Positions 24,764 to 63,512 of a stretch of DNA of 64,000 nucleotides are shown piece after piece. Each line of letters begins with the position of its first letter. The stretch's first letter is position 1. The notes under the pieces are model-generated. The model did not search any database, was not told where the DNA came from, and saw only the letters and a list, made by a program, of their open reading frames with translations. Location: positions 682,001 to 746,000 of the forward strand of contig NZ_JAPWDU010000003.1 of assembly GCF_027257155.1 (NCBI RefSeq). The letters run 5' to 3'. The position numbers and the translations under genes are program-made. This DNA is from Cerasicoccus sp. TK19100. Its GTDB lineage: Bacteria > Verrucomicrobiota > Verrucomicrobiia > Opitutales > Cerasicoccaceae.

Positions 24764-25138
24764 ATTCACGAACTAGGGCGAAGGGGGCGAACGTTAAATT
24801 CTAGGTAAGTTAAAGGGTCGAACGTAGAAAGTAGAATCCCACTCCTTATTCCTCTTTGGATTTCCTGATCAGTTCTTGAGAATGCATGACAGGGAGAGGG
24901 TCGCTCGGCTCCGTGGTGGAAAACACCCGAGCAGAAAAGAACTCCAGCGGGACTTTAGCACTGTGACAAAAAGGCATTAGGATCGTTTTGGGCAAACGAT
25001 GGTAATCATTTTTGAAAAGAGATTAGGATGTGTTGGAGCAATAGATGGTAATGTGTTACTCCAGCAGATGGTAATGTGATGCCCCAAGACATTAGGTTAT
25101 GTTGGTCCAGCAGATGGGGATGTGTTGCTCCGGTCTAG
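24764..25138. other. gap with short degenerate direct repeats before orphan cassette 3
   Basis: No gene. The 5' end carries two copies of a GGGTCGAACGTAGAA-like motif (24782-24800 and 24812-24829). The 3' end (about 24974-25131) holds degenerate repeats: ATTAGG followed by a TGTTGG-like block, and the AGATGGTAATGTG block at about 25044, 25074 and 25111. RHS homology starts at about 25139, directly after them. They may be remnants of a mobile-element end, but no transposase is visible. Confidence 0.5.
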
Positions 25139-54445: not shown

Positions 54446-54618
54446 GGCGTTGATTTGAAGGAAAAAAGGGAAAGGTTAAAGGAAAAAGGCGTGGGATGCG
54501 TCACTGCTCTTTGGGCTGAATCAGCAAAGTGCGCCCGGCAATTATCTCTCTTTTGCCGCGATAAACTTTGATCTTTTTCCTTTTTCCTTTTTCGTCCGCC
54601 CACTATGGTGGGCGCTAA

Positions 54619-59662: not shown

Positions 59663-59723
59663 GCCGTGAAGTTGTTCCGCTTGCGTTGGGAAAAATTGGC
59701 GGGCACAGTTGAGCGTTTCGCCG

Positions 59724-62700
59724 ATGTCCAAAGACCCTGAATTTGTCCACTTGCACGTTCACACGGATTACAGCCTGCTCGATGGCTGTAGCCGCACCGA
59801 TCGCCTGTGCCAGAAGGCGGCGGAGCTGGGCCAAAAGGCGATCGCGATAACCGACCACGGGGTGCTGTTCGGCTTGGCGGATTTTTATAAAAAGGCCGAC
59901 AAGGCCGGCGTAAAGCCGCTGCTGGGCTGCGAAATTTACCTGATTTTTGAGGACGAGCTCGGCGCGACCAACGACGTCAAAGCCAAGCAAAAGAGCCACC
60001 ACATGGGTCTTTTGGCGCGCAACTTCAAGGGCTACCAGAACCTGACCAAGCTCGTGAGCCTCGGCCATACCGAGGGCTTTTACCGCAACCCGCGCGTGTC
60101 GCGGCGGCAGCTGGCCGAGCATAGCGAGGGCCTGATCGGCTTTAGCGGATGCCTGGCGGCGGTGATTCCGCAGCGGCTGATGGACGGCGACTATGCGGGC
60201 GCCAAGGAGGCCTGCGGGTGGTTCGTTGATTTGTTTGGCAAAGAGTTTTTCTTCATCGAGCTGATGGACCACGGCATCGAGGAGCAACAGCGCATCATTC
60301 CGGATTTGCTCAAGCTGGCCAAGGAGTTCGACCTGAAAATCGTCGCCACCAACGACGTTCACTACGTCAACGACCAAGACTGGAAGCCGCACGATTCGCT
60401 GATCTGCATCCAGACCGGCGCGAAGCTGGCCGACGAAAAACGGCTACGCTACGACAGCAATCAGTTCTACCTGAAGAGCCGCCAGGAGATGGCGCAGGTG
60501 TTCGACCGCTACGATCCGAACTGCCTCATCAACACCAACGCCGTCGCCGAAATGTGCGAGGTGAAGCTGCCCTTTGGCGAGGACCATTACCCCGTTTACG
60601 AGAAGCCCATCGAGATCACGCACGCGGAAGATGTCGACAACTTCGACCGCATTCTCGACATCTACGAGCAGAAGAAAAACGAGATCAACGCCCGCGATGG
60701 CAAGGACCTGATCTCGCTTTCCGACCAGGAGCGTCTCGATTTTCGCAAAAACGGCCTCTACCTGTTTGAGCTTTGCAAAGAGGGGGTCAAGGAACGCTAC
60801 GATGTCGATTACGACACCTTCCGCGCGGCGGCCAAACCGGACGATGAAACCCACGAGTATCAATACCAGCTCAAGGTCTGCGATCAGCTGGACTACGAGC
60901 TGGCGATCATCATCGGCACGGGTTTCATCGACTACTTCCTGATCGTTTGGGACTTCATTAAGTGGGCGCGTGACCGGGGGATTCCGGTCGGCCCGGGTCG
61001 TGGTTCGGGTGCGGGTTGCGTGGTCGCCTACGTGTTGAAAATTACCGACATCGACCCGTTCCGCTTTGGCCTGCTCTTCGAGCGAATGCTCAACCTTGAG
61101 CGCGTCAGCCCGCCGGATTTCGACGTGGACTTCTGCATGCGCCGCCGTGATGACGTCGTCAATTATGTGCGCGAGAAATACGGCAAAGACCGCGTGGCGA
61201 ACATCATCACCTTCGGCACCTTTGGCGCAAAGATGATCGTGCGTGACCTGGCGCGCGTGAACGACATTCCTTTCGGTGAGGCGGACAAAATCGCGAAGAT
61301 GATCCCGGACGAGCTGAACATCTCGCTGGATGATTCCGTGGAAAAGTCGGCCGAGCTCCGCGCCGAGATCAAGACCAACCCGATTGCGAAGAAGATCATC
61401 GAGCAGGGCAAGGTCATCGAGGGCATGGTGCGCAATACGGGCAAGCACGCGTGCGGTGTGATCATTGCGGACCAGCCGATCACGAATCTGATCCCGGTGA
61501 CGCTGCAGGAAGGCGACCTGACCACGCAGTATCCAAAAGGGCCGAGCGAAGACCTCGGCTTGCTCAAGTGTGACTTTCTCGGCCTGAAAACGCTGACCGT
61601 TATTTCCGACGCACAAGAGAACGTGCGCCGTTTGCCGGGCATGGCCGACTTCGACATTGAAAAGGTCAGCCTCGAAGACGGCCCGACTTTTCAACTGCTC
61701 AAGGAGGCGAAAACGGTCGGCGTGTTTCAGCTGGAATCCGGTGGCATGCAGGGGCTGTGCCGTCAGCTGGAAGTGTCGAGCATGGATGAGATTGTGGCGC
61801 TCATCGCGCTGTATCGTCCGGGGCCGATGCAGTTTATTCCGCAATACATCCGGGGTAAAAAAGACCGCTCGACGATTCAGGTGCCGCACCCGCTTTTGAA
61901 AGAGCTGGTGGAGGAAACTTACGGTGTGCTCGTTTACCAGGAGCAGGTCATGCAGAGCGCGCAGATCATCGCCGGCTACACACTGGGCGGCGCGGATATT
62001 CTCCGCCGCGCGATGGGCAAGAAGATCAAGTCCGTCATGGATCAGCAGAAGGAGATCTTCATTAAGGGTGCCAAGGAACACCATGACATCTCCGCCAAGC
62101 AGGCCACGGAAATCTTCGGCATCCTGGAGAAGTTCGCGGAGTATGGTTTTAACAAATCCCACTCGGCGGCCTATGCGATGCTCTCGTATCGCACGGCCTT
62201 TTTGAAGGCGAACTTCCCGACCGAGTTCATGGCGGCAGTGCTGTCATCGGAGCTCGGTAACGCGGACAAGGTTTCGCACTTCGTCGAGGAAGCCGAGTCG
62301 ATGAAGATCGAGGTGCTCGGCCCGGACATCAACGAATCGCGGGAGATGTTTACGCCCGTCGTTCAATTGCAGAATGCGGATTGCGGATTGCGGAATGGTG
62401 ATGAGAGTGCTCAGAAATCTGAAATCGAAAATCCGCAATCTGAAATGGGTCGCATTCGTTTCGGCATGTCTGCGATTAAGGGCGTGGGCGATGCGGCGGC
62501 AAAGGTGATCATTGCCGAGCGCGAGGCAAATGGTCCTTACGAGGGCTTTCACGATTTCGCGCAGCGCGTCGATATGAAGGCCGTCAACAAGCGCGTGCTC
62601 GAGTGTTTGATCAAGACCGGCGCGTTTGATTTTGAGGGCGTGGACCGCCAGCATTTGCTCGACTCGATGGAGGGCATTCTCGCGGAAGTCGCCGACTTGC

Positions 62701-63512
62701 AGAAGGACAAGGAGACCGGCCAATCGAACTTGTTTGACCTCTTGGCCGAGCCTGAGCCCGCTGCGGGCAGCAAGTCCAGTGACAACCAATACGACACGCG
62801 CGGGCCCAAGATGACGCAGACCGATAAGCTTCAATTTGAGAAGGAGCTGCTCGGTTTTTACGTCTCCGGCCACCCGATGAACGCCTACGCCGGGCTTGAT
62901 GACATCATTAACAGCTTTGGCCCGGATGAGGACCTCAAGCGCTGGGATCGCGAGAGCTTCCGCTTGTGCGGGGTGATCAATAACATCGTTAAAAAACTCA
63001 CGCGTAAGGACAACCGGCCGTGGGCGTTTTTCACGCTTTCGACGCGTCGGCAAGCTTACCAAATCAACGTCTTCCCCGACGCCTTCGAGCAGAATATGCA
63101 GAACCTCGAGAACGCGTTCGTCGTGTGTGTCGAGGGCGAGATCCGCTACGACAGCGAGCGCGAGGAAGTGCGGCTCAACGCCAACCGCGTGGCCAAGCTC
63201 GACTCGTCGCTGTCGGCCTTTATCGATTCGGTGACCTTCTACGTGGACAACGATGCGACGCGCCTCGATGACTTCGCGCACGAGCTGTCGGACTACCTGC
63301 AAAGCAACGAAGGCCCGACTTCGGTTCGGTTGGCGATCATGACCGCACCCGACCGCGCGCTGCATGCCGATCTTGGGGTTTCGCTGAACTGCCAACTGCG
63401 CCCGGAGTCGTTTAAAAAGCTTCGCAGCCAACCCTGCGTCCGCGGGGTGCTCGGCCAGGCACGCTCCTTGCCCGAACCCCCCAAGCCCGCCTGGATGCGC
63501 GGCAAGAAGTGA
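59724..63512 (+). CDS. dnaE: DNA polymerase III alpha subunit
   Basis: A 1,262-residue replicative polymerase. ATG at 59724 leads directly to the PHP domain ([28 protein letters not shown]). The palm follows with [17 protein letters not shown] near 424 and catalytic Asp residues in [15 protein letters not shown] near 463. Further marks are [45 protein letters not shown] and the HhH segment [12 protein letters not shown]. The OB fold and C-terminal part complete the protein. Near residues 880-908 an extra segment ([16 protein letters not shown], then [10 protein letters not shown]) breaks the normal spacing. Its DNA looks like an intergenic repeat inserted in frame. Possible DnaA boxes lie upstream. 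Confidence 0.96.
62361..62447. repeat. intergenic-type repeat inserted in frame in dnaE
   Basis: GCGGATTGCGGATTGCGGAA lies at 62376-62395. GATTGCGGATT (62379-62389) is inversely repeated as AATCCGCAATC (62430-62440). The right half also has two CTGAAAT strings (CAGAAATCTGAAATC and ATCTGAAATGG). About 29 codons are added between FTPVV and [12 protein letters not shown]. Confidence 0.75.

Follow-up and report, generated by a model that had tools for sequence, protein, structure and literature searches.

In-frame heptad repeats of an intergenic kind in a DnaE loop of Cerasicoccus and other Opitutales

Short-word and palindromic repeats in bacterial genomes

Tandem arrays of 7-bp words are found near gene ends in several groups of bacteria. 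According to the accessible portion of one study (PMC4692102), the arrays of GGGAATC in Xanthomonas and of GGGGA(C/T)T in Nostoc preferentially comprise four units, which is explained there by G-quadruplexes; the G-rich strand is found after stop codons and its antisense before starts, 70 and 75 facing pairs are present in two Xanthomonas, and the arrays are mostly intergenic, with 7-11% in or overlapping ORFs in Xanthomonas. TAACTGA heptamers form gene-end arrays in Beggiatoaceae, Cyanobacteria and Bacteroidetes, with between-strain indels in 7-nt steps (PMC4679880, accessible part). Palindromic repeats may also be translated: the Rickettsia palindromic elements are read in frame (Ogata et al. 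2000, 2002, as covered by the accessible part of a review, PMC10969869), and the GTAG/CGTC REPs include palindromes inside replication and repair genes, one of them in dnaE of R. conorii, Opitutus terrae having the most intragenic GTAG copies (PMC3733652, likewise in part).

The locus described here, in a stretch of 64,000 nucleotides from Cerasicoccus sp. TK19100 (the window), is an insert of facing heptad arms in dnaE. Tandem 7-bp words, a preference for four units, a location at gene ends with strand polarity and facing pairs are shared with the Xanthomonas and Nostoc arrays, but the words found here lack GGG, pure CTTTCAA/CTCTCAA arrays even lack GG, and a recurrent polymerase site was not found in the description of those arrays, so far as the accessible portion of PMC4692102 extends. 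The TAACTGA heptamers are likewise 7-bp repeats close before start codons, some of them in ORFs; they differ in consisting of one fixed word that is nearly always direct, and their in-ORF copies mostly sit at the ends of proteins or in hypothetical proteins of small size (accessible part of PMC4679880). Like the Rickettsia elements, the dnaE insert is an in-frame palindrome in an unrelated gene and is predicted to be tolerated; those elements, however, form families of ~150 bp with a conserved peptide, as far as the review's accessible part describes them, whereas here words and peptide vary by species and interiors are not shared. No conserved element with a peptide shared across copies was found, the interiors of the CTTTTTC family of this genome being unrelated. 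A GTAG or CGTC tetranucleotide is absent at the ends of the window's arms; an insert in the same loop of another genome, G085, looks like a member of the GTAG/CGTC REPs as portrayed in the accessible part of PMC3733652, and the untagged insert of the window, built of heptads, differs from it. REP and RPE insertions in genes are known; heptad arrays recurring at one polymerase loop were not found in print, and a literature search, with most subscription journals outside its coverage, yielded no report of heptad arrays from Verrucomicrobia and none that dealt with this polymerase loop.

The in-frame insert of dnaE

The gene dnaE, encoding the DNA polymerase III alpha subunit, spans 59709-63512 on the forward strand, its start possibly being the ATG at 59724. 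Its product matches PHP, DNA_pol3_alpha, DNA_pol3_finger and HHH_6 above the Pfam cut-off, and the OB fold at 26.9 bits versus a cut-off of 27. An in-frame insert of 28 codons (62364-62447, forward strand), delimited by sequence and loop-length comparison, lies between FTPVV and GRIRFG; the codons 62361-62447 encode V plus 28 residues, followed by GRIRFG, and the frame stays open across the segment. The left arm (62366-62397, forward strand) comprises four heptads of the GATTGCG type and reads, as reverse complement, CATTCCG, CAATCCG, CAATCCG, CATTCTG, CAAT; after a spacer (62398-62414, forward strand), the right arm (62415-62446, forward strand) consists of AAATCTG, AAATCGA, AAATCCG and CAATCTG (62415-62442), with AAAT trailing up to 62446. 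The word splits and the coordinates of both arms were set by eye. A search for inverted repeats gives a perfect 11-nt pair, GATTGCGGATT at 62379-62389 and AATCCGCAATC at 62430-62440 (positions on the forward strand); the longer arms of 36 nt are 72% complementary. Tandem Repeats Finder reports two period-7 tracts that face each other (62366-62394, 4.1 copies; 62414-62446, 4.7 copies). The initial annotation had described an inverted repeat with CTGAAAT strings inside the dnaE frame; both are confirmed, CTGAAAT occurring twice (62419-62425 and 62440-62446), and the statement that residues are added to DnaE without a frame break is borne out as well. The figure of about 29 added residues is right for the size of the segment and too high for the net gain: the loop of the window measures 34 aa versus 11-15 aa in the six relatives from other genera of the family, an excess of 19-23 residues, since part of the segment replaces the normal turn.

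None of 100 codon shuffles of the loop matched its inverted repeat, and none of 1000 its period 7 (p=0.001), by which a chance origin of the repeat was rejected. When the 64 kb were scanned for periods 4-15 with a high cut-off, period 7 alone scored, at two places: the insert and 54573-54593. Other candidates were also discarded, namely a conserved DnaE element, by the comparison of loops among relatives; a known RNA family, the sole Rfam match in the window being a tRNA; and an internal translation start at the ATG at 62445 after the right arm, as the relatives' loops share no ATG there.

An AlphaFold2 model of 430 residues (32-sequence alignment, mean pLDDT 83.9), which matches DNA polymerase III alpha structures, assigns the insert a pLDDT of ~48-49 between the confident strands 212-214 and 244-247. 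The insert is modelled as disordered, between two strands that precede the helix-hairpin-helix domain, and to the question raised with the initial annotation, whether it maps to a surface loop of the polymerase, the model answers in the affirmative. Thermus DnaE has a short turn at the corresponding place, between 880 and 886. Pfam HHH_6 spans the insert, and the domain that follows is presumably the helix-hairpin-helix/clamp-binding part.

Heptad families in the genome and in the DnaE loop of relatives

In the window's own genome (G000; 5.07 Mb, 13 contigs), BLAST with the insert segment finds five further places, and the word pair GATTGCGGATTGCGG, allowing one mismatch, has 21 matches, overlapping ones and the window's own included, versus 1 for the reversed control. 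Merged, these matches define nine other places of the GATTGCG type. Judged by ORF context and Pfam, six are in intergenic gaps (L003, L005, L006, L041, L046, L052), which supports the original view that the repeat is of an intergenic kind. At L004, the left arm covers the closing codons of a ferrochelatase gene together with its stop, and the right arm is intergenic. At L002 (1503-1530, contig C6), a four-word array probably falls within the opening codons of a gene for a ProB-like kinase (Pfam AA_kinase and PUA); since an in-frame ATG is found upstream of it, the array is probably translated at the kinase N terminus, and it is the only other GATTGCG array that looks translated, at a protein start. 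L047 is assignable neither to a gap nor to a gene. The notion that all other copies were intergenic was dropped after this reading of L004, L002 and L047.

A second heptad inverted repeat of the window (54460-54593), detected by pattern and tandem-repeat searches in a gap between ORFs, has an arm of the GGAAAAAGG type at ~54460-54489 and an arm of the CTTTTTC type (x3) at ~54564-54593. It belongs to a larger heptad family of G000, CTTTTTC, the same family as the matches G000:C3:736474 and 736573. The CTTTTTC/CTTTAAT family has 91 pattern matches in G000 versus 8 control matches; the 18 places read from the 91 include 11 facing pairs, six right arms alone and one left arm alone, and the interiors of the facing pairs (30-250 bp) have just one 12-nt match in common. 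Among the CTTTTTC arms of three or more words (n=28), 12 stand before an ATG, ending 6-19 nt upstream of that of an ORF >=100 aa, 10 stand at a stop, 1-21 nt from the end of the neighbouring ORF, and six at neither; for random positions, a control that covered ATGs and not stops, 889 of 8000 were <=40 nt from the ATG of an ORF >=100 aa. In the congener G002, 11 of 15 arms are located before an ATG, 2/15 at a stop and 2/15 at neither. The window also contains a 23-bp tandem repeat at 25026-25131 (4.6 copies, 62% matches).

Arms of four words account for 23/29 (CTTTTTC) and 10/14 (GATTGCG type) in G000 and for 11/17 in G002; the preference is weaker among the CTTTCAA/CTCTCAA arms of five relatives, where four-word and two-word arms each number 14 of 31, all these counts depending on our word lists. 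GATTGCG, GAAAAAG and GTTAAAG arrays have no GGG and have GG at most junctions; pure CTTTCAA/CTCTCAA arrays have neither GG nor CC. The argument that four units rule out quadruplexes was dropped, because the families with the clearest four-unit preference keep GG junctions; with GG at most junctions in these three families, a weak two-layer quadruplex may form.

All three congeners found (G001, G002, G003) have an insert at the same point of DnaE, of 50-54 residues and with other words. Two findings that the initial annotation had set against itself, conservation of the segment in relatives and absence of the repeat elsewhere, are not what is seen: the position recurs while the sequence differs in every congener, and the repeat is present at other places of the genome. 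In the order search, 337 of 372 genomes had a DnaE match, and loci were fetched from among the matches listed; 94 Opitutales loci were read (30 + 22 + 2 + 40 from successive searches), the order name being our reading from the two nearest named loci, and L212 gave no readable loop. The 93 extracted loops, mostly best hits and not a random sample, measure 6-66 residues. A scan with over-conserved query peptides returned mainly other phyla; of its 80 DnaE loci, two are named Opitutae and the other 78 were taken as a control. No loop was readable in 29 of the 78; the 49 readable ones, not named Opitutae, have loops of 6-13 aa and no insert.

A period-7 array (p<0.01) is present in 23 of the 57 Opitutales loops of >=15 residues (23/93 of all loops read), with 18 unit consensuses, or fewer if one-letter neighbours such as AATGACC/AATGACT/AATGACG are merged. 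Of the periods tested (4-14), none but 7 and 14, the latter twice the former, reached significance in more than two loops. Seventeen of the 23 heptad loops form an inverted repeat with arms >=12 nt, six missing this cut-off, and in all 17 the left arm is more than half purine, the same polarity as in the intergenic pairs; the purine content of the window's arms is nearly equal (0.59 left, 0.53 right, for the part scored). The G003 loop has no significant inverted repeat (10/100 shuffles reach its score), and the heptad loop of L067 is GC-rich and borderline. Other palindromes occur in long loops, namely the GTAG-type REP pair of G085 (L187) and inverted repeats in L184, L189, L058 and L069. 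The insert of the window is one instance of a recurrent event at this DnaE loop across the order. A second heptad array, of CAAAATC, was noticed in another DnaE linker of L012 (G032; period-7 score 24), where it encodes IQNPKSKIQN.

On a tree of 93 DnaE fragments, from which the loop was excluded, the heptad label changes 17 times, and well-supported branches force at least 13 changes. Shuffled labels require a mean of 20.6 changes, and only 6 of 500 shuffles were as low as observed, which indicates some clustering of the label. Simple inheritance accounts for some copies (those of the congeners; those of G275 and G299). Near sisters with and without insert are L181/L196, L078/L214 and L067/L206, and loop lengths are 45 vs 6 residues in the first of these pairs and 29 vs 6 in the second.

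The loop DNA of G000 and the loops of G002, G085 and G346 match repeats of their own genomes, the latter three having each been searched in 12 genomes. The G002 loop has 23 matches in G002, comprising the self-match, the matches of its two arms to each other and 15 other arms (five on both strands), and none in the 11 other genomes, G000, G001 and G003 included; 14 of the 15 loci are without an ORF >=60 aa that spans the arm by >60 nt, and the fifteenth overlaps an antisense ORF of 147 aa. The G085 loop matches its own genome at least 50 times, with both strands counted, compared with at least 14 matches across the 11 others (6, 5, 2 and 1, those for G348 and G135 being lower bounds, and 0 in seven). 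The G346 loop has 9 matches at home (four other places), 10 in G275, at least 6 in G348, at least 5 in G135, at least 1 in G085 and 0 in seven; with at least 22 matches in four other genomes, its repeat family is common to several genera.

Origin of the insert and its meaning

The insert most likely represents an intergenic repeat that resides in this genome and has lodged in frame in a presumably unconstrained surface turn of DnaE, its arms presumably having been written or exchanged in place. The turn, a connection between two beta strands immediately ahead of the helix-hairpin-helix domain, would tolerate highly varied in-frame peptides and would thereby look like an intergenic gap to the repeat-generating process. 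Arms would appear in the turn, carry the words current in that genome and vanish again; they would be written or exchanged one arm at a time, perhaps by template switching from one facing arm to the other during replication, and would not enter as a single transposing unit. The loop most likely does nothing for DnaE, for which a function of the insert is unsupported.

Writing in place is suggested by three orthologous gaps, which were read by eye (metK and ahcY assigned by Pfam). The metK-ahcY gap (L303-L305; L082 7019-7107) has facing heptads with different words in G000, G001 and G003 and, by eye, no heptads in G002, G005 and G006. Upstream of aroQ, two arms are present in G000, the right arm only in G001 and G003, a trace in G002 and none in G005 and G006. 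Upstream of rpsS, heptads occur in G000 only, among six genomes; the gap is ~49 nt there vs 40-44 nt in the congeners, which would fit overwriting better than the arrival of a whole unit, three gaps being few.

It is unlikely that a miniature transposon (REP/RPE or MITE type, with a Y1/RAYT transposase) jumped whole into dnaE, the peptide being tolerated. Such events have their precedent in the published REPs in genes, R. conorii dnaE among them (accessible part of PMC3733652), and in the GTAG-tagged REP pair that G085, with its at least 50 home matches, carries in the very same loop. Of 14 further REP copies examined in G085, six are contained in ORFs of 552-1017 aa that have Pfam matches (MnmA, FAD oxidase, SMC, RecD2, PurL and, weakly, UxaE), three overlap shorter or doubtful ORFs, and five overlap none. 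The pairs inside the long ORFs are located near position 1500 of the loci L282, L291, L297, L299 and L300, and near 1217 of L293. G000 itself has 8 Y1_Tnp matches, RAYTs and other Y1_Tnp proteins counted together. Transposition suits the G085 REP but not the heptads: the interiors between arms are unrelated, the window's arms have no GTAG/CGTC tag, words are shuffled between arms, single arms stand at 7 of 18 places, and G002, a carrier of heptads whose genome is 97% complete, lacks any Y1_Tnp match at E 0.001.

We give still less credence to a selected hairpin in dnaE DNA or mRNA, for instance one that slows translation between the fingers and the helix-hairpin-helix/clamp-binding part or binds S1, Csp or another factor. 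A significant inverted repeat is present in three of four congeners, with different words, and the RNA folding z versus codon shuffles is -2.9 in G000, -5.5 in G001, -1.5 in G003 and -12.0 in G002; yet z is near 0 in L216 (-0.4), L067 (-0.6), L078 (-0.6) and L181 (-0.9), some loops have one array only, the near sisters of L181, L078 and L067 do without any insert, and so do the 49 control loci. An ordinary low-complexity or lineage-specific protein loop with a repeat by chance is scarcely credible, for although the DnaE loop is hydrophilic and variable and the long loops L068, L071, L073, L015 and L075 show no repeat signal in codon-shuffle tests, the codon shuffles, the genome-specific DNA matches and the specificity for period 7 contradict it.

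Beyond the resident repeat written in place, we tentatively raise a wider idea that is itself rather doubtful: arms about four heptads long and of nearly any sequence could represent a single widespread class of DNA tract, so far unrecognised and fixed in size at 4 x 7 bp, which a dedicated or replication-linked process writes in place at unconstrained DNA and whose words turn over in the genome concerned. The loop in dnaE of Opitutales would then record this process naturally within a gene, and the quadruplexes of the known examples would be by-products. The many two-word arms in the family without GG (CTTTCAA/CTCTCAA) make this idea less probable.

One loop in an enzyme that is both essential and universal has taken up, again and again, non-coding repeats that are unrelated in sequence and in kind, and thus records the evolution of gap DNA. 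As its flanks are alignable in every genome, repeat gains, losses and word changes are datable at this loop, which is hard between genes. The loop also offers a test of why heptad arrays exist, for here they recur at a site without a part in gene control and without start codons.
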